Both the position numbers and the translations under genes were made by a program. Under the pieces are notes generated by a model. That model ran no database searches. It saw only the letters and a list, made by a program, of their open reading frames with translations, and was not told the DNA's origin. Shown in pieces: positions 3,488-12,095 of a stretch of DNA of 44,118 nucleotides (positions are counted from its first letter, which is position 1; each line of letters opens with the position of its first letter). The DNA is from Patescibacteria group bacterium (GTDB taxonomy: Bacteria; Patescibacteriota; JACPGU01): the NCBI GenBank assembly GCA_028718745.1, contig JAQULF010000007.1:1-44118 (forward strand), given 5' to 3'.

Positions 3488-4018
3488 TTATCCATTCTCC
3501 ATAATGGAAATTAATTTATTCAATTCGCAAACCTTTAATCTTTGTTTATCCAATAATTCTTTTGGAAATATATTTGAATATTTTGCCAATTCGCCCCTAT
3601 TCTTTTTATTGATATAATTTGATTCAAACTCGCTCTTGCACCAAACAGAATTTTTCCCGTTTGAATTTTTTCCCAAAATTGTTAAAAGCATAAATTCTAA
3701 ACAGGGCGTATTTTCAATCAATTCGATACTTCTTTTTTGCGCTTCTTGTCTTGCCTTTTCCATTTCTGCTTTCGCTTTATCATTATCTAGCATCACTATT
3801 TTTTTACTATAATCACCGGGTACTCTATCGGCATCTATAACAATGCCATCAGCAGTACCACCTCTACCCTTTGATATCGTCACACTAGTACCACTATCCC
3901 GAGAATAAAGACCTCTCAAGTGTTTTAGAAAAACTTCTTCTCCTAATCCTTCACCGACAATAAGAAGCGTTCTTTTGGCTTGGCGTCTTTTTTTCTTAAA
4001 TGGATTGGTTCGCGACAT
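3488..4018 (-). CDS. RloB-like protein, partner of the adjacent AAA ATPase (putative abortive-infection component)
   Basis: 176 residues matching the RloB family by eye. A basic N-terminus (PFKKKRRQAKR) leads to a strand-loop LLIVGEGLGEEVFL at 18-31, like the VEGxTE opening of TOPRIM-type nucleases. An acidic pair VMLDND follows at 75-80, then NTPCLEFMLL at 103-112, the family's conserved SNPCFE-WLL-like segment. RloB proteins are found in phage-defence loci, including AbiL, next to an ATPase of the kind encoded just upstream (18-base gap). The expected role is a nuclease-like effector unleashed by the ATPase on infection; this is inference. The protein is at the short end for the family and I saw no frameshift. 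Confidence 0.8.
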   Translation of the reverse strand: MSRTNPFKKKRRQAKRTLLIVGEGLGEEVFLKHLRGLYSRDSGTSVTISKGRGGTADGIVIDADRVPGDYSKKIVMLDNDKAKAEMEKARQEAQKRSIELIENTPCLEFMLLTILGKNSNGKNSVWCKSEFESNYINKKNRGELAKYSNIFPKELLDKQRLKVCELNKLISIMENG

Positions 4019-4036
4019 TTTTGTTTATTCTTAGTA

Positions 4037-5260
4037 TTATAATTTAGGTATAGCCCCATAAGCTCCAGCGATATATTTGGTATAGTAATTATCGTCCGCT
4101 CGAACACCTGACACTTCATCAAGTCGCCAAGCTTCACTAACTCCTTTTTCATTTTTCTCTACAAGGATAATTTGCTGTTTATCTAATTTGCTTAAAATCA
4201 TATGACTATGGGTACTTAGCAAAAGCTGCGCATTTTTAGGATTGGTTTCGGGTTGAATGAATAATTCAAAAAGATGCAATACCATTTCTGGATGTAAATT
4301 GACATCAAATTCATCAAGCACGGCTATACCACCCTGACTTAATACTAAAAGAATGGTTTTAAGCAAAGCAAACAATTGCTGGGTACCAGAAGACTCGTAA
4401 TGCATAGGAAGATATTCCTTTTTCCCGTCAAACAGGTGAGCAACTTGAGCGGTAAAACGAGGCGCACCATTTTCTTTTTTTTGCTTGCTTATTTCAAACC
4501 CAGTTAGTCCAAGATCAAATTGTGACAATAATTTTTCCGCTTCTTCTTTTAGTTTTTTATTTTCGATGTTGCTATAAAAGTCAAAAGCGTCGAACAATTG
4601 TATGTTTGAACTATGCAATAAACTATTACCGGCCCAGCCAGCCTCAATAACATTGGTTTCGACCTGCTGCCAAGCAGTAGAAATTTTTTTACTCTCCTTG
4701 TGATTTGAGCGGATAGCCGTCTCAATTATACTGGCGTTGGAACGCAACATGTTCGCAAAGCCTTTCGGCAAATTAAAATTTTTTTCTTCAAGTTCGTATT
4801 TATTGTTTTTCCCATTCCATTTACGATAAAAAACTTTCTTAACAGTGCTTTTTTCCCGAGTTTTGTTTTTTATTTTCAATTCTTCTTCTAATATCTTTTT
4901 TTCATCCAGCTTAAAACTATAGAAATAAATATCGCTATCAATTTCAAATACGACGGAAAGCTCAATCAGATCTTTCGCACGACTGCCAAATATAAAAGGC
5001 TTTACCGGCAACGGAGCTGAAGGGTTGAGATTATAGGAATCAGTAATCAACCATTTTAAAAATGGCAATGCTTTAAGCAAGTTGGTTTTTCCTGACGCAT
5101 TGGGACCAATGACAATTTCCGCCTTGGAAAGCCGAACCCCCGATGAAGCCTTGAAATATCCGTTATTAGCGGGAGCTTTGTCATTCACTACAAAATCAAT
5201 AGTTGTTGTGTCGCCGAAGGAATAGAAATTTTTACATGAAAAGGAATGTATTATTATCAT
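4037..5260 (-). CDS. AAA-family (OLD/RloA-like) ATPase of a two-gene defence unit
   Basis: 407 residues. Walker A GPNASGKT lies at 52-59 after an N-terminal strand layout typical of SMC/ABC-like ATPases (SFSCKNFYSFGD). The ABC-type signature ESSGTQQLFAL precedes Walker B AVLDEFD (about 313-319), and the switch histidine sits in STHSHMI at 349-355. This is the AAA_15/AAA_21 type seen in AbiL, PARIS and OLD-like systems, where the ATPase senses infection and controls a TOPRIM or RloB partner. The partner is directly downstream. A promoter lies at 5306-5334 with a short palindrome just upstream of it, so the pair is probably its own transcription unit, separate from the operon that ends at the terminator near 5465-5490. 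Confidence 0.88.
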   Translation of the reverse strand: MIIIHSFSCKNFYSFGDTTTIDFVVNDKAPANNGYFKASSGVRLSKAEIVIGPNASGKTNLLKALPFLKWLITDSYNLNPSAPLPVKPFIFGSRAKDLIELSVVFEIDSDIYFYSFKLDEKKILEEELKIKNKTREKSTVKKVFYRKWNGKNNKYELEEKNFNLPKGFANMLRSNASIIETAIRSNHKESKKISTAWQQVETNVIEAGWAGNSLLHSSNIQLFDAFDFYSNIENKKLKEEAEKLLSQFDLGLTGFEISKQKKENGAPRFTAQVAHLFDGKKEYLPMHYESSGTQQLFALLKTILLVLSQGGIAVLDEFDVNLHPEMVLHLFELFIQPETNPKNAQLLLSTHSHMILSKLDKQQIILVEKNEKGVSEAWRLDEVSGVRADDNYYTKYIAGAYGAIPKL

Positions 5261-5543: not shown

Positions 5544-6122
5544 TTATTGTGGCATTGCATCCATAGATTTTAAAAACTCTTTGAGATCCCAGAACAATAG
5601 CTTTATAAAGAGAATAAATAAGACGACCAGAATTAAAGAGTTCAATATAAAGCCTAGATATCCAGAGAGGATCATGGCCACAAGAGACAACACAACAATT
5701 ATCAGCGACCATCTTACTACTGTTTTTTTAAAAATTAATTTTAAGCCCTCTTCGATAGACCTTACTGCTGCTAGAAGTTTAGCTGTTCTGTCTGCGGTAG
5801 CGCAATATTCTTCGTTCAATTTGCATTTGTTTTTTTCGAGTTTGTTCTGGAGTTCGCGAGGCTCCAAAAGTGCTGGTTCGTAAACCTTCCATTCACATTT
5901 ATTATCTACCTCGTTTTTTCTAATTTCGTCTAAAACATTTTTACTAGCATCCTTTATGCGGCGTAAATCATCCATAATGCTGGCTCTTCGATAAAAATAT
6001 GCTACGATCATAATAGAAATAAGTGTAAGAGATCCCATAAAGAACATTTCATATAGCAAAGCAAAATTAACCTTATTGCTTTCAATTAAATAATTAAACA
6101 ATTGTAAAATTTTTTGATCCAT
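5544..6122 (-). CDS. Small membrane protein with cytoplasmic coiled domain, last gene of the defence operon
   Basis: 192 residues not recognised. The layout is one membrane helix (about 22-44), a charged, mainly helical middle of about 90 residues (DDLRRIKDASKNVLDEIRKNE onward) with three cysteines, then two closely spaced membrane helices (about 138-156 and 159-176) and a short tail. Helical-domain plus paired-helix proteins at the end of defence operons often act as membrane effectors, such as SLATT-type two-helix proteins. I see no specific SLATT motif, so this is only analogy. It starts 17 bases after the DUF262-HNH gene and is followed by the operon's terminator, which argues that it belongs to the system. 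Confidence 0.7.
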   Translation of the reverse strand: MDQKILQLFNYLIESNKVNFALLYEMFFMGSLTLISIMIVAYFYRRASIMDDLRRIKDASKNVLDEIRKNEVDNKCEWKVYEPALLEPRELQNKLEKNKCKLNEEYCATADRTAKLLAAVRSIEEGLKLIFKKTVVRWSLIIVVLSLVAMILSGYLGFILNSLILVVLFILFIKLLFWDLKEFLKSMDAMPQ

Positions 6123-6139
6123 TGCTATATCCCTCGCCT

Positions 6140-7237
6140 TTATTTCCCCGATTTGGTTCGATTATGTTCTTTACACAGCATCTGACAATTTTTTGAAATT
6201 GTTTTTCCTCCTTCATGCCAAGGTTTTATATGATCAGCCTCCATCTCTTCAATTTCCCATTTCTTTTTCTTACTTTCCCCCTTGCAGTGCGGGCAGATTC
6301 CTTTTTGCTTTTCATATGCTTCGCGTTTCATTTTGTCGGTAAATGCTCGAATGTTCAAATATTTTTCATTTCTGGTTAAAACATATTCATAAATACCTGA
6401 TTTTCTGGTCACATCTTCATCTTGCATCAGCTTGGTTATCTCTTTTTCTAATTTAGCCGAATCAAATTTTTTATCTTTAAATTCATTATACAAAAAGCCA
6501 AATTGAACACCTTTCATTTCTTTGCGGTATTTTGGGAAAACCGCCTGCGCCCAATTTATCACATTTTGAAAATACATCCACAATTCTTCAGCTATTGCTT
6601 TATGCTGATTCTTCCCCATGTATTCCTCAATATTATCCTTACTGATCCATCTGATCGCGGTCTCCAAATAATCTTGGCGAATCGGTGAACCAGTTAAATA
6701 ATCATTACCCATGCCATAAGCTGGGCAGCCGGTTTTGCTAAAATATCTCTTGGCATCAGTCAGCCATGGTCCGGTATAAATTGCATTCCTTAATTCTTGA
6801 TCGGTCAGTTTCTCGCCGGCAATGTTTATGATTTTGAACCAATCCAATTTCTCCTTGTCTGTTCCTTCGCAAAAATAGATCATTAATTTGTAATTCAAAA
6901 TTTGTTCTCTGTCCGTGTCTGTAAGGTTGTGAAAGTACAAATTATTTAATGAAAACTTACCTTCAATATATTCGCAAAAACTAATAGTTCTCTGTTGACC
7001 ATCCAAAACTTCAAAAGTTCCATCTTCGTTTTTTACCCAATACATCACATTAAGCGGGAAATCTTTATTAATTGTTTCAATCACGGCGTTTCTTTTGTCG
7101 TCTTTATACACAAACTCGCGCTGATATTTTGGGCGAATATTTAATTTCCCGCCATAACCAACCACACCTTCTTCGTCGTTATTCTTATACCCATTCGCAA
7201 CTTCCTTAATTGTGATTTCTTTAAGTTGAATTTTCAT
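6140..7237 (-). CDS. DUF262 (GmrS/ParB-like) protein with C-terminal HNH nuclease domain
   Basis: 365 residues. The N-terminal DUF262 domain shows RPKYQREFVY at 35-44 and VLDGQQRT at 77-84, the motif pair of the ParB/Srx-like NTP-binding fold found in GmrS, SspE and DndB-like proteins. The C-terminal 50 residues are a zinc-type HNH endonuclease: CPHC at 315-318, EADHIKPWHEGG at 333-344 with the catalytic DH, N350, then C355-KEH-N. This joins in one short chain the two activities of GmrSD type IV restriction enzymes. All catalytic residues look intact. It sits fourth in the operon, 15 bases after the DUF6602 gene. A role as nuclease in phage restriction is inference from family and context. 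Confidence 0.88.
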   Translation of the reverse strand: MKIQLKEITIKEVANGYKNNDEEGVVGYGGKLNIRPKYQREFVYKDDKRNAVIETINKDFPLNVMYWVKNEDGTFEVLDGQQRTISFCEYIEGKFSLNNLYFHNLTDTDREQILNYKLMIYFCEGTDKEKLDWFKIINIAGEKLTDQELRNAIYTGPWLTDAKRYFSKTGCPAYGMGNDYLTGSPIRQDYLETAIRWISKDNIEEYMGKNQHKAIAEELWMYFQNVINWAQAVFPKYRKEMKGVQFGFLYNEFKDKKFDSAKLEKEITKLMQDEDVTRKSGIYEYVLTRNEKYLNIRAFTDKMKREAYEKQKGICPHCKGESKKKKWEIEEMEADHIKPWHEGGKTISKNCQMLCKEHNRTKSGK

Positions 7238-7252
7238 AAAATTATTTTTAAT

Positions 7253-8077
7253 TTATTCAATTTTCTCTAAAATATCATCCGTTAAATATATTGTCATATC
7301 TAAATCCAGCAAAATGTTCATATTTAATGCCATTTGAAGTGCGCTTAGAAAATTAATTATTGGTATAGGAAAGTCGCCAATATCATTTTTCCTAAAATTA
7401 TCTACATGGATATTGTTTCCAGCGAAGGGGAAAGAAAGATTATTAGTTTTTTTACTAATAGTTGAATAATCCAATATCCCATCCTGCAGACTTAACACTA
7501 AATTATGCTTAAATCTATGGTTCTCTGTATAGTTAATTTTGTTTAAATCAATACTAAATTTAAATTTGTGACATATTAAAAAGGTAAAAATATTATGAAA
7601 TGGGTTCTTTCTTGGATTAAAGTCTAATTTTTTACATCCATAATATGGGTCTGAGTTTTTAACTTTTTCTCTTTCCTCCTTTATCTCTGCTAGTTTTTTA
7701 AGATAAGTTTTTAGGTCTTCTACCGTATTTATGTCTGATTTTATTTCTCCAACACAAGATACCGTTTCAATTGGAAAAAATCTTTGTTTACCAACGCCTT
7801 CTATTGTAGGGGTTTTTTCTTTGTCATAAATAATAATATCGCATTGCGTGCTTACATATCCATTGGAATTTACAATGAATCCTGAGCTAACCCCAAACTT
7901 CTCTGGTATATATGAACTAAGCCACTTTTTAACTAAATCTTCTCGATATATGCCGTATTCTCCAGGATGTATTAACTTGTTGTTTTTATCATCCCAAAAT
8001 ATTTCTTTTGCATTTACAAAGGAATTTTTAAAATTATTATAATTTTCAACTGTTATGTTCTTGATAATTTTATTCAT
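7253..8077 (-). CDS. DUF6602-like putative PD-(D/E)XK nuclease
   Basis: 274 residues resembling the DUF6602 family. The N-terminal half has the pattern of a PD-(D/E)XK nuclease core: a helix EDLVKKWLSSYIP (46-58), then STQCDIIIYD with D80, a spacer, then VGEIKSD with E111 and K113. DUF6602 proteins are frequent in defence loci and are usually viewed as restriction-endonuclease-like. The C-terminal 150 residues are mixed and unrecognised. It lies directly downstream (7 bases) of the EcoRI-family methyltransferase, where the cognate nuclease of a restriction-modification pair would be expected. Neither cleavage nor specificity can be read from the sequence. Its codon usage appears more AT-rich than that of the flanking housekeeping genes. 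Confidence 0.75.
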   Translation of the reverse strand: MNKIIKNITVENYNNFKNSFVNAKEIFWDDKNNKLIHPGEYGIYREDLVKKWLSSYIPEKFGVSSGFIVNSNGYVSTQCDIIIYDKEKTPTIEGVGKQRFFPIETVSCVGEIKSDINTVEDLKTYLKKLAEIKEEREKVKNSDPYYGCKKLDFNPRKNPFHNIFTFLICHKFKFSIDLNKINYTENHRFKHNLVLSLQDGILDYSTISKKTNNLSFPFAGNNIHVDNFRKNDIGDFPIPIINFLSALQMALNMNILLDLDMTIYLTDDILEKIE

Positions 8078-8084
8078 TGTTAAT

Positions 8085-9206
8085 TTATTTTTTAACTTTC
8101 TTATTTCTAATAATTATGCGAGCGTAAATACTCGAATATAATTCTCCCGTATCACAATTCTTGAAAGCTGGAATGTCATCCGTCTTAGGGTTGTATACAC
8201 GATACAGGGTTCCTTTTGCGTTATAGGTAAATTTTCCTGTTGATTTACCATTTTTATCTAGGATTTCCATTTTTTTATTGCAAGAAAAATCAACGGATCC
8301 CACGATGCCGAGCGCTATTATTTTAAATTGATCTGGATTATATTTATCCAAAAAGGTAATTGGCACACCCATCGCTCCCTTGTAATTCGTAGGGATATCT
8401 TTTGTCACATCAACATTTATCGCGTCATAATTGTCATATTTTGGATATTCGTTTTCGTGTCCCTTGTAGGTCTTGATAAGAATTAAATCTTCGTGGCGTT
8501 CTTTGTAGTCCAAATTTGTGAACCAACGAACACCTTTCACTCTGATATACTTTTTGCCATTTTCATCAATTCTGCATCCGGCAGCGTTTAATGGATAATC
8601 ATCGGGAACGCCAAACTCTCTGTCCCCACTATGAATACTATGCCCCAGCCAAACTTCGTTTTCTTTAATAAGTTTAAAAAACTCTTTATATGTTATGGCA
8701 TTTAGACTACCAATGATAATAAACTTTTTATCGTATTCCATTAATTGCGCGACATATTCGCGGAACAACGAAAAGGGTGGATTAGTAACTACGATATCGG
8801 CTTGTTTCAAAAGCTCGATGCATTCCGGGCTTCTGAAATCACCGTCGCCTTTTAGATGTTTGATGCCTATTTCTTCCAATTCTGGTACTTTATCGCCATT
8901 TTTGTCGCCGGTGTATTCCAAATAAATCGCTTTTTCAGAATTGTTTTGACTGAACAGATCAACATTTTGATTTTTGTAGCAAGTGGCAATCAGCTTTTTC
9001 AAGCCCAATTTTTCAAAATTATAGGAAAAATAATGAAAGAAATTGCTCACTCTAGGATCATCGCAATTACAAAGAACCACCTTGCCTTTGAAATGCTTTT
9101 CATAATGTCCCAATTCTTTTTCAATATCAGAAAGCTGGGTGTAAAATTCATCCTTTTTTGCCTTGCTCGCCTGGTGCAGGTTTTTATTTGATGCTTTCCT
9201 TCCCAT
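8085..9206 (-). CDS. Adenine-specific DNA methyltransferase, EcoRI methylase family
   Basis: 373 residues, close in layout to M.EcoRI. The family's opening block KKDEFYTQLSDIEKELGHY lies at 17-35, GKVVLCNCDDPRVSNFF at 41-57 forms the AdoMet-binding region, and IVVTNPPFSLF at 138-148 holds the N6-adenine catalytic NPPF. IIGSLNAITYKEFF and WFTNLDY follow, as in the family. It should transfer a methyl group to the N6 of adenine in a fixed site. The site may not be GAATTC, since family members differ. No EcoRI-type endonuclease is present; the neighbours are DUF262-HNH proteins on both sides and a DUF6602 protein. It starts six bases after the upstream gene. Confidence 0.9.
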   Translation of the reverse strand: MGRKASNKNLHQASKAKKDEFYTQLSDIEKELGHYEKHFKGKVVLCNCDDPRVSNFFHYFSYNFEKLGLKKLIATCYKNQNVDLFSQNNSEKAIYLEYTGDKNGDKVPELEEIGIKHLKGDGDFRSPECIELLKQADIVVTNPPFSLFREYVAQLMEYDKKFIIIGSLNAITYKEFFKLIKENEVWLGHSIHSGDREFGVPDDYPLNAAGCRIDENGKKYIRVKGVRWFTNLDYKERHEDLILIKTYKGHENEYPKYDNYDAINVDVTKDIPTNYKGAMGVPITFLDKYNPDQFKIIALGIVGSVDFSCNKKMEILDKNGKSTGKFTYNAKGTLYRVYNPKTDDIPAFKNCDTGELYSSIYARIIIRNKKVKK

Positions 9207-9212
9207 ATATTT

Positions 9213-10997
9213 TTATAAGCTTTTATAATACCTCTCAATCTTCCTCGCCATAAGCTTCCTTCTGGTCTCAAGAAAATCAAAGTAGTCATCTATTTCCATT
9301 TGCATAGTTTCTTTAGGAATACAATGCTTTTCAAGATTTTCCAGAAGCTGTTTCTCATCTAGAATATTTCCATATTTTAATTTTCCTGTTTTGATTTGTT
9401 CCATTAGCTCGGAGAAATACTGTTTTGGCGCTTTTTTACCAATACGGATATTTATTTCCTGCTGGGCATAAACATAATTTCCGATTTGATTATAGTCAGA
9501 TCGCGAACTGTAGGTTTTTTTCAAAAATTCTTTTGGGAAAACATGGTGGATGTCTCCCCTGTGTTCAATCATATCGCGTACCTTGATATCATTCGAAAGA
9601 AATCCTTCGTCATTGGCGTAAACTTGAGAAGCAAAAAATACATTGATATATGGATTGGACAAAGATGCTTTTTCTAATTCTCCGGGCAACCCCACATCCC
9701 AAAATGCTTCGGACAATTCCGAATCCTCAATTTGTTTCAAGTATTTTTCAATTCCGTGTTCGGAGATATTGCGGATATCTTGATCAAACATTGATTCGGG
9801 CGACATGGAATAGCGTGTGGTAAGGTTGCTCATTACAAACCATTTCTTAACATATTTTTCGATATCTCCCGGCTTGTATCCCAGGTCTTTTAATTTCAAA
9901 TAAACTACATAGGCAAAATTGAGAACATTTTGAGAATTAATCATTGAGCTATCTATAAATCCGGTTGACTTTATAATCATTACAAATCTCTCGAAATTGG
10001 TTTGATTTATAAAATCAAGTACCCCACTCTCAAGATTCTTAAAAGATTTTTCTTCGATTTCTTTTTCAAATTCTTTGGTTTCAAAATTTCTACCGGAAAG
10101 CAGGCTGACCAAATCGCTCATCTTGCCGCGAGTAAAATTTTTCGTGAAAGAAACGCGGATGACATCGGTATAATCCGGATCATAAAGGTCGTCATTTACA
10201 TTTTTAAGCCATTCAATCTTCGGCAGATATGAGGTCTTAGCAAACTCTGTATCATTCTCGCTGATTTGTTTAAAAAATTTCGGTTCGCGCGCTAAATGGC
10301 AGAAGTAATCTATAAGTTTGCGAAGGTTTACGCCAAAATCCCCCGTAGATGCGATCTTGCTCATCGCGAAGTCGGCTTGAGAAAGAACTACGCCTTTGGA
10401 ATTTATGCGAATAAAAATTTCCGTTACCGTTTCTATATCCAGCCCTTCAGCCAATTCGATAAAGCCAACCTGTTTATTTTTTATTGCTAAAAGTTGCTGA
10501 AAATTCTTTTGAATTTGTCGTCTCTCTGCCTCCGGATTTTTTTCGCAATAATCCTCTACGGTTTCAAAAAGATCATCATTATTAAGAAATTCCGAAATGT
10601 CAGCGATCCAATTGGGATCTTTTTTGATAATCGGAGTAAGAGTTGCGAATTCTTCCTTTTGAGGATTAAAAGATATTTGGATCCGAACTTCCTTATATTC
10701 TTTGTTCACAATTTTTTCGCCAAGAATTGCAGCGCGCAACGCTGTAATTCTTTGCTGACCATCAATCAAAACTTTCTTGCCGGCAGAAATCGTACCATCT
10801 TTTAGTCTAACATCGGGGTTTTTCCAAGCGATAATATAACCGATCGGGTATCCTTGATAAAGAGAGTCCATTAGATCACGAACTTTGGAAGCGTCCCAAA
10901 CAAAGGGTCGCTGAATTTCCGGAATGGCAATTTGCCCCATTTGAACATCGCTTAAGATATTGGAAATCAAGTACTGATTGACAGCATATTTTTGCAT
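9213..10997 (-). CDS. GmrSD-like DUF262 protein with C-terminal HNH/DUF1524-type domain, first gene of the defence operon
   Basis: 594 residues. DUF262 at the N-terminus shows IPEIQRPFVW at 25-34, YPIGYIIAW at 50-58 and LIDGQQRITAL at 78-88. A long helical middle follows. The C-terminal part has RGDIHHVFPKEFL (about 480-492), then YNQIGNYVYAQQEINIRIG (about 502-520), the H-H/N pattern of DUF1524-type HNH domains in GmrSD and SspE. Length is near that of full-size GmrSD fusions (about 550-700). Known relatives cut modified DNA (GmrSD) or act when phosphorothioate is sensed (SspE). Here the companion is an adenine methyltransferase, so sensing of methylation status is an attractive but untested idea. 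A promoter lies at 11025-11053. Confidence 0.9.
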   Translation of the reverse strand: MQKYAVNQYLISNILSDVQMGQIAIPEIQRPFVWDASKVRDLMDSLYQGYPIGYIIAWKNPDVRLKDGTISAGKKVLIDGQQRITALRAAILGEKIVNKEYKEVRIQISFNPQKEEFATLTPIIKKDPNWIADISEFLNNDDLFETVEDYCEKNPEAERRQIQKNFQQLLAIKNKQVGFIELAEGLDIETVTEIFIRINSKGVVLSQADFAMSKIASTGDFGVNLRKLIDYFCHLAREPKFFKQISENDTEFAKTSYLPKIEWLKNVNDDLYDPDYTDVIRVSFTKNFTRGKMSDLVSLLSGRNFETKEFEKEIEEKSFKNLESGVLDFINQTNFERFVMIIKSTGFIDSSMINSQNVLNFAYVVYLKLKDLGYKPGDIEKYVKKWFVMSNLTTRYSMSPESMFDQDIRNISEHGIEKYLKQIEDSELSEAFWDVGLPGELEKASLSNPYINVFFASQVYANDEGFLSNDIKVRDMIEHRGDIHHVFPKEFLKKTYSSRSDYNQIGNYVYAQQEINIRIGKKAPKQYFSELMEQIKTGKLKYGNILDEKQLLENLEKHCIPKETMQMEIDDYFDFLETRRKLMARKIERYYKSL

Positions 10998-11024
10998 AAC
11001 AAAGAGATTAATGCTATTTTCCCC

Positions 11025-11053
11025 ATTCTACCACAAAACCGAGGGTGTTTAAA
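11025..11053 (-). promoter_or_regulatory. Likely promoter of the five-gene defence operon
   Basis: On the minus strand TAGAAT (11025-11030) is preceded by TGG, giving an extended -10, with a weak -35 TTTAAA 17 bases upstream (11048-11053). The ATG at 10997 follows after 27 bases. It lies immediately beyond the terminator of the redox operon, so the defence operon starts its own transcript. Confidence 0.5.
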
Positions 11054-11087
11054 CCCAAAAAAAGAGCGGCCCCAATAGGCCGCTCTT
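11054..11087 (-). terminator. Strong intrinsic terminator ending the redox/glycolysis gene block
   Basis: AAGAGCGGCC (11062-11071) and GGCCGCTCTT (11078-11087) form a perfect 10-base stem with a six-base loop. On the minus strand a run of seven T follows directly. It closes the minus-strand series whose last gene is at 11101. Confidence 0.9.
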
Positions 11088-11100
11088 AAAAGTCCGTTTT

Positions 11101-11457
11101 TTATTTCTTCTTCCTTATCACCCCCGCAACCAGAGGCAGGATAAATGTTAGCGCGTAGTATAGATATATATCAAATTTATAGTAACCTACTATTTGGAAA
11201 AGTTGAACATTAAATATATAATCCAGAACCACAGCAAGTAGTGTCCAAATAACAGCAATTTTCAGATAATACTGGAATGAATCACCTTTTACTTTTTTAA
11301 ATAAAACTAACAGTGCAATAATGATACCGATTGGCATTATTATCCAACCAATAAGGCTTGGCGATACCATCTTAAATAGTATAATCCCCAAAATCCATCC
11401 AATTAACCAAAGTAAGAATCCCCAACCCAAAGAATCTTTTAAAAATTGCTTTTGCAT
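11101..11457 (-). CDS. Four-helix membrane protein of unknown function
   Basis: 118 residues with four predicted membrane helices (about 10-30, 34-53, 65-85 and 95-115) and basic ends (VIRKKK). I recognise no family. It is the last gene of the minus-strand series before a strong terminator and follows the FTR-like gene by 24 bases. Nothing in it suggests a redox role beyond this placement. Confidence 0.7.
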   Translation of the reverse strand: MQKQFLKDSLGWGFLLWLIGWILGIILFKMVSPSLIGWIIMPIGIIIALLVLFKKVKGDSFQYYLKIAVIWTLLAVVLDYIFNVQLFQIVGYYKFDIYLYYALTFILPLVAGVIRKKK

Positions 11458-11481
11458 ATTTTTATTTTATTCATATTATTT

Positions 11482-11820
11482 TCATTTTGTTCTCAACTCT
11501 TTGGGACGCCTTTCCGGAATAGAATGTGTTTTTTTCGTTCCATCATTTATTTCTTTGGATACATACAGCGAGCAATAGCAATTACCAAACTCTGCTACAT
11601 CGGGATCTCGATAAAAACAAGGGCAGATAATATCGCTGTCTTTTTCCAATACGCCCGATGCCAATCGGCAAGGACAAGAAGTGTAACCGTACCTTTCTTT
11701 ATTTTTCATTAAACCTCGGACCAAATCTTTAGTGAATTCAATATCAGGATTGAGGAACTGCCCCAAATTTTCCGTCGCCCCTTTTAGAGATTGATAAAAT
11801 TGATCAACTTGTTCTTCCAT
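11482..11820 (-). CDS. Ferredoxin:thioredoxin reductase catalytic-subunit-like protein
   Basis: 112 residues carrying the three cysteine pairs of the FTR beta subunit: CPC at 49-51, CPC at 66-68 and CYC at 81-83. They ligate a 4Fe-4S cluster next to a redox-active disulfide, and N-terminal helices precede them as in the family. FTR passes electrons from ferredoxin or a similar donor to thioredoxin. FTR-like proteins also occur in non-photosynthetic anaerobes. The start codon overlaps the stop of the glutaredoxin gene (TAATG), so the two are translationally coupled, and the two proteins may form one electron path. No FTR alpha subunit is seen here, which is usual outside cyanobacteria and plants. 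Confidence 0.88.
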   Translation of the reverse strand: MEEQVDQFYQSLKGATENLGQFLNPDIEFTKDLVRGLMKNKERYGYTSCPCRLASGVLEKDSDIICPCFYRDPDVAEFGNCYCSLYVSKEINDGTKKTHSIPERRPKELRTK

Positions 11821-12095
11821 TATTTTAGCGCCTCCTTTATTCCCTCTTCATCAAATCCTTGAATTATTTTTTTGCCGTCGATAATTAATAAAGGAAAGGA
11901 AATATCCGAAGTGAATTTGGCAATCTCCTCACTCACTTTTTTATCTTCCGCCTCATCCAATAAATCAACATCAATAAAGTCATAGGCCACACCTAATTCG
12001 TTTAAAAGATTTTTGGTTTTGTGACACCAAGGACAAGTGGAGAGCGCATAAAGCATTATTTTTTTATCGCTTTTTCCTTCAACATGTTTTTGCAT
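11820..12095 (-). CDS. Glutaredoxin-like thiol oxidoreductase
   Basis: 91 residues with a glutaredoxin fold. After an N-terminal extension of about 12 residues comes IMLYALSTCPWCHKTKNLL with the active site CPWC at 21-24, then DVDLLDEAED, ISFPLLIIDGK (the cis-proline SFP) and a C-terminal IQGFDEEGIKEAL. It reduces disulfides using glutathione or, as the neighbour suggests, electrons from the FTR-like protein whose start overlaps its stop by one base. CPR bacteria generally lack glutathione synthesis, so the FTR route is plausible. It starts nine bases after gapN. Confidence 0.92.
   Translation of the reverse strand: MQKHVEGKSDKKIMLYALSTCPWCHKTKNLLNELGVAYDFIDVDLLDEAEDKKVSEEIAKFTSDISFPLLIIDGKKIIQGFDEEGIKEALK

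Follow-up and report, generated by a model that had tools for sequence, protein, structure and literature searches.

The 44,118-nucleotide stretch of Patescibacteria DNA analysed here (the window; contig JAQULF010000007.1 of assembly GCA_028718745.1) carries a gene for an EcoRI-type adenine methyltransferase (M) and, close to it, a gene for a 365-amino-acid (aa) protein combining a DUF262 domain with an HNH nuclease domain (B). M and B form a conserved two-gene unit, and the three other genes of the cluster in which they lie are not part of the conserved system. B is the cognate nuclease of M. On balance, comparison of the sequences makes it probable that the pair is a restriction unit whose specificity resides in two swappable modules of M, designated V1 and V2, with B having no specificity of its own. 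We also lean, by a little, towards the wider view that such pairs, in at least five phyla, would represent a separate restriction-modification (R-M) architecture, namely a non-specific DUF262-HNH protein directed by a two-module methyltransferase of the EcoRI family, with EcoRI itself a single side clade that has an independent nuclease and frozen modules.

M and B are constant neighbours

The two-gene unit was recognised because B stands next to M in genomes of the host phylum, on plasmids and in IMG/VR contigs, and because B matches a Type II restriction endonuclease (REase) profile. M lies beside B in 78 of 80 IMG/VR loci seeded with B, and the other two begin at or near a contig end. A search of 380 genomes of the phylum gave B homologues in 57; about 35 of these were strong, and almost all of the strong ones have M directly upstream. 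The reverse search gave PF13651 above its cut-off in 37 of the 380 genomes, nearly all at the same loci; B adjoins M in about 35 of these 37, one exception being a genome (G309) in which an R.EcoRI-family nuclease takes the place of B. M is also present at all 16 B-seeded plasmid loci examined, from four phyla (Bacillota, Pseudomonadota, Actinomycetota and Bacteroidota). The two genes overlap or are at most 20 bases apart in 60 of 64 distinct pairs. R-M systems in general are marked by genetic linkage between the genes for a methyltransferase and a nuclease, and this is the arrangement seen for M and B.

The initial annotation, made from the window sequence, had seen no EcoRI-like nuclease gene to go with M and had put three other nuclease-like proteins in its place. 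M does have a cognate nuclease: the 365-aa B is its constant neighbour and matches the PADLOC profile REase_II PDLC03418 over its full length (468.7 bits), as do the other members of the B family. The suggestion that the methyltransferase is linked to a DUF262-HNH protein, most likely in restriction, was borne out for M and the 365-aa B. A neighbourhood search, named beforehand as a possible refutation, gave a divided result, in which M and the 365-aa B stayed together and the other three genes dropped out. B as an unpaired GmrSD-like enzyme was rejected on account of its constant pairing with M.

The pairing is probably already known to annotators, since the PADLOC profile files B-like proteins as putative Type II enzymes. 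No description of the methyltransferase-DUF262 pair, or of its module logic, was found in open-licence PubMed Central (PMC) papers, and the proposed division of labour between M and B would be the new part.

In viral contigs, about a quarter of the M genes adjoin neither a B nor an R.EcoRI gene (for example L315, L319, L324, L349, L350 and L363); these are orphan phage methyltransferases or lie on cut contigs. In one locus (L298) B is truncated, and a further methyltransferase-like gene comes after it. Small XRE-type helix-turn-helix proteins, resembling the controller genes of R-M systems, are encoded close upstream of M in L032, L040, L045, L046, L052, L059 and L164.

Two hypervariable modules re-assort within M

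M is 55% identical to the M.EcoRI that adjoins R.EcoRI on E. coli plasmids, and its NPPF motif (residues 142-145) is invariant in the aligned M sequences. Alignment of the pairs revealed hypervariable stretches in M and none in B, and these stretches occur as discrete types. V1 lies between two motifs, 'LWLG' and 'WFTNL'; the C-terminus holds V2. Among the 180 pairs in which B is at least 75% identical, mean identity is 34% for V1 and 13-16% for V2, against 70-89% for every 25-aa window of B. Typing of 117 M-B pairs gave 31 V1 types and 64 V2 types in 97 combinations. At 80-90% B identity, V1 is common to 27% of pairs, V2 to 10% and both to 8%, and the tree of B requires at least 71 changes of V1 and at least 97 of V2. 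As judged from these alignments, V1 and V2 re-assort independently.

Individual types illustrate the exchange. The V1 type of the window is found in loci from Sulfitobacter, Gordonia and others, and its V2 type elsewhere only in two loci (L049 and L335). Two Patescibacteria pairs (L035 and L040) combine a V2 almost unchanged from that of genuine M.EcoRI with other V1 types, and the V1 type of M.EcoRI is present in eight M-B pairs. In one viral contig (L238; IMGVR_UViG_3300021256_004131), summarised as 'one nuclease, two METHYLTRANSFERASES', two M genes precede a single B and all three genes overlap; the two Ms have near-identical cores and different V1 and V2. A Variovorax plasmid carries a second locus of this kind, with two Ms of different modules and one B.

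In this class of methyltransferase the recognition domain is expected in the C-terminal half, after NPPF. Tyr204 of M.EcoRI (mature numbering, residue 205 of the open reading frame, ORF) lies inside V1 and is reported to cross-link to target DNA. We infer from their position, and from their freezing in EcoRI systems described below, that V1 and V2 would be the DNA-recognition parts of M.

A third variable stretch, V0, corresponds to residues 76-120 of the window M. Many homologues carry an EF-hand-like DxDxDG segment there (e.g. DIDGDGEFNLKDI), which is absent from the short version in the window. Comparison of the M structure with the PDB returned general Rossmann methyltransferases only, and a sequence search gave no solved relative of M.

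The modules are frozen beside R.EcoRI

Methyltransferases of the same family that adjoin R.EcoRI served as a control, with loci from E. coli, Klebsiella, Leuconostoc, Staphylococcus, Rhodococcus, one genome of the window's phylum and viral contigs. Neither V1 nor V2 differs in type among the 13 typed Ms beside R.EcoRI, although R.EcoRI identities range from more than 90% to less than 50%. These Ms form one clade, consistent with a single change of partner on the tree of M cores. The modules are frozen beside R.EcoRI and re-assort beside B; thus an independent REase appears to freeze the modules, whereas B does not. On a plasmid of Acinetobacter schindleri (L174), the methyltransferase that partners an R.EcoRI-family nuclease belongs to a different family.

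B is conserved throughout and does not track the modules

The statement of the initial annotation that the catalytic motifs are intact holds in alignment for DGQQR (79-83), H336 and D335/N350/N359 of B and for NPPF of M. Across 64 B sequences C315, C318 and H336 are invariant, and D335, N350 and N359 nearly so. The AlphaFold model of B (pLDDT 90) shows a DUF262 (ParB/Srx) fold with DGQQR, a helical part and the HNH domain. Its nearest structures are BrxU, Noc/ParB, sulfiredoxin and an HNH nickase, all weak matches, with SspE also listed.

Among the 117 pairs, neither V1 type nor V2 type shows covariation with any 20-aa window of B (|z| below 2). A covariation of residues 161-200 with the modules, seen in 66 pairs (z up to 2.8), was gone with 117 pairs. 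Because B is constant while the modules vary, because the modules are frozen in R.EcoRI systems and because one contig pairs two Ms with a single B, B is probably not sequence-specific and would take its target from M.

Proposed mechanism and alternatives

In the mechanism that we favour, M would define the target site through V1 and V2 and methylate adenine there. B, with a predicted nucleotide-binding DUF262 domain of ParB/Srx fold, an HNH domain and no sequence specificity of its own, would bind M, or the M-DNA complex, at unmethylated targets and cleave there or nearby. Replacement of a module in M would then retarget modification and restriction together, in the manner of Type I and Type III systems. 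Recognition by V1 and V2, action of B through M, use of a nucleotide and restriction of DNA by the pair are all steps that we infer.

Several points weigh against this mechanism. The DNA-reading role given to V1 and V2 derives from their position and from the freezing in EcoRI systems, and partly from the reported cross-link of Tyr204. A few residues of B could hold specificity and still produce no hypervariable window. Furthermore, the DUF262 relatives GmrSD, BrxU and SspE sense modified DNA (PMC12707154; PMC4619093), and B might likewise read the methyl mark and not bind M. SspE is reported to attack DNA by the absence of host marks, with phosphorothioation as the mark. The main alternative therefore has the DUF262 domain of B sensing N6-methyladenine in any context and attacking DNA that lacks host marks, again without binding M; as B would need only the presence of marks, the specificity of M would be free to drift. 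Such an enzyme would also show a constant B beside a freely varying M, and the closeness of the B model to BrxU and the ParB/Srx fold, with SspE among the structures listed, is in keeping with it. However, separation of self from foreign DNA would then depend on the density of marks, and unlinked methyltransferases should serve, whereas B is nearly always closely coupled to one methyltransferase family. We regard this alternative as unlikely. Less probable still is an ordinary Type II system, in which B would be an independent sequence-specific HNH enzyme with a few specificity residues co-evolving with M. PADLOC places B under REase_II, and the gene pairing is typical of Type II, but B has no hypervariable window and none that tracks V1 or V2; at 80-90% B identity, about 92% of pairs differ in at least one module; and the modules are frozen in the EcoRI systems, which do have an independent REase. 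The observed pattern is predicted by recruitment through M and by sensing of marks, and not easily by an independent Type II enzyme.

We attach very little weight to a five-gene system in which all the nuclease-like proteins act together, the model of the initial annotation, which saw three nucleases replacing an EcoRI-like one. Tight co-directional spacing in one genome speaks for it. Beyond the window, no homologue of the 594-aa DUF262 protein or of the DUF6602 protein was found beside any other M-B pair among more than 100 loci scanned, and none of the 192-aa membrane protein in the M-B loci of the phylum scanned for it; the M-B gap elsewhere holds unrelated genes, and the DUF6602 and 594-aa homologues have other contexts. 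The DUF6602, 594-aa and 192-aa genes are more readily regarded as putative cargo in and around the M-B pair.

The locus and its accessory genes

The five minus-strand ORFs of the initial annotation were all recovered (Table 1), in the order 594-aa DUF262 protein, M, DUF6602 protein, B and 192-aa membrane protein, with gaps of 6, 7, 15 and 17 bases. Their family labels also stood, with Pfam giving GmrSD_N/DUF262 for the 594-aa protein, EcoRI_methylase, DUF6602, and GmrSD_N with HNH for the 365-aa protein. A promoter before the unit and a terminator after it had been proposed; a weak promoter-like site and a terminator-like hairpin do precede the first gene, but no terminator-like site was called downstream of the last gene. 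Promoter-like sites number 32, against 22.7 +/- 4.9 in shuffles, about 2 standard deviations above. The host assembly comprises 888 kb in 28 contigs, and genomes of the same phylum are mostly of 0.5-2 Mb.

Table 1. Features of the M-B locus, in window coordinates
Feature	Position	Strand	Remarks
M, EcoRI-type adenine methyltransferase, 373 aa, core gene 1	8085..9206	-	PF13651, 485.8 bits
B, 365-aa DUF262 (ParB/Srx NTPase fold) + HNH nuclease, core gene 2	6140..7237	-	GmrSD_N + HNH
V1, hypervariable module 1 of M (residues 189-227), proposed to recognise the target	8526..8642	-
V2, hypervariable module 2 of M (residues 298-367), proposed to recognise the target	8106..8315	-
DGQQR motif of B, residues 79-83	6989..7003	-	invariant in 64/64 sequences
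HNH domain of B, residues 315-363	6149..6295	-	PF01844
DUF6602 protein, 274 aa, candidate NucC-like PD-(D/E)xK nuclease between M and B	7253..8077	-	PF20247, 91 bits
594-aa DUF262 + HNH-like protein, BrxU-like, accessory, co-directional with M-B	9213..10997	-	GmrSD_N
192-aa membrane protein, accessory, without family	5544..6122	-	no Pfam, PADLOC or NCBIfam match
Strong terminator-like hairpin of the preceding gene	11087-11062	-	upstream of first gene; consensus match only
Weak promoter-like site	11053-11025	-	upstream of first gene; consensus match only

The DUF6602 protein aligns over residues 32-129 with Serratia NucC, a solved structure (phmmer E 6.8e-12). Profiling of seven proteins, from the unit and its immediate surroundings, gave no cyclic-nucleotide synthase of the CBASS (cyclic-oligonucleotide-based anti-phage signalling) or Type III CRISPR kind that could activate it, and the open-licence PMC literature gave no description of DUF6602. 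Its homologues occur in varied places with no constant neighbour, and DUF6602 as a constant partner of M-B was rejected on this ground. The 594-aa protein matches BrxU (7p9k, E 2e-9) and PADLOC HEC-05. The settings of its homologues are unrelated to one another; one sits within a Type I locus, flanked by the M and S genes, and one relative lies near an EcoRI system.

The gap between M and B is filled in a minority of pairs, by unrelated genes, and in the window by DUF6602. The occupants include an AAA_13 ATPase (L033), a DUF2806 protein (L055), a Bro-N protein (L164), membrane proteins (L039 and L041) and small proteins of no assigned family. Cargo unrelated to the pair was seen at this junction in L033, L039, L041, L055, L056, L057, L158, L164, L255 and the window, and the junction is possibly a tolerated insertion slot for defence genes. 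The L033 occupant (9691-11880) is a 729-aa ATPase of the PrrC/RloC-like family and PADLOC candidate PDC-S06; its place within an M-B pair resembles that of PrrC inside a Type I locus. On the small Enterococcus dispar plasmid pK205-4b-C (L158), M and B are separated by optrA, a gene for linezolid resistance.

Directly downstream of the unit, on the same strand (window 3488-5260), are genes for an AAA ATPase (AAA_21, PADLOC AbiLi) and an RloB-like protein (AbiLii), likely an AbiL-type defence pair. Because of this neighbour, the five-gene region can be viewed as part of a small defence island.

Comparison with known systems

By analogy, the pair resembles Type III (and Type I) R-M systems, in which a constant nuclease subunit works with a hypervariable modification or specificity subunit. 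It differs in that M belongs to the EcoRI family and carries two small modules, and in the DUF262 NTPase-fold domain of B. Moreover, Type III Res combines a superfamily 2 (SF2) helicase motor with a PD-(D/E)xK nuclease, whereas B consists, by Pfam, of GmrSD_N and HNH only, with no SF2 motor. If the proposal is true, a large group of pairs now filed as Type II follows Type I/III logic but uses another kind of nuclease, and specificity could be changed through two short segments of M, of about 40 and 25-70 residues. The new combinations include modules whose meaning is known, for instance those of M.EcoRI (GAATTC), so that a recognition code could be worked out.

With GmrSD, BrxU and SspE (DUF262 with HNH or DUF1524), B shares a DUF262 domain bearing DGQQR and an HNH-type nuclease, and BrxU is structurally nearest. 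Modified DNA is the substrate of those proteins, which are Type IV enzymes or sense phosphorothioation, whereas B is coupled to an adenine methyltransferase gene, is shorter and has a classical HNH. A stand-alone Type IV enzyme has no cognate methyltransferase, while B is almost always beside M. The REase_II label of PDLC03418 is given by similarity; that B stays constant while M varies speaks, indirectly, against a Type II specificity independent of M.

The closest comparison is with EcoRI itself, whose methyltransferase belongs to the same EcoRI_methylase family and has the same two-module layout. There the partner is the independent, sequence-specific R.EcoRI, with R preceding M in annotated loci; here the partner is a DUF262-HNH protein and M precedes B, and Pfam assigns no ORF next to M in the window to the R.EcoRI nuclease family. 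One methyltransferase family with either R.EcoRI or a DUF262-HNH protein offers a natural comparison, in which target choice by DUF262 proteins is directly testable. The contrast between modules frozen in EcoRI and re-assorting in M-B pairs would, moreover, provide an evolutionary context for the textbook EcoRI system.

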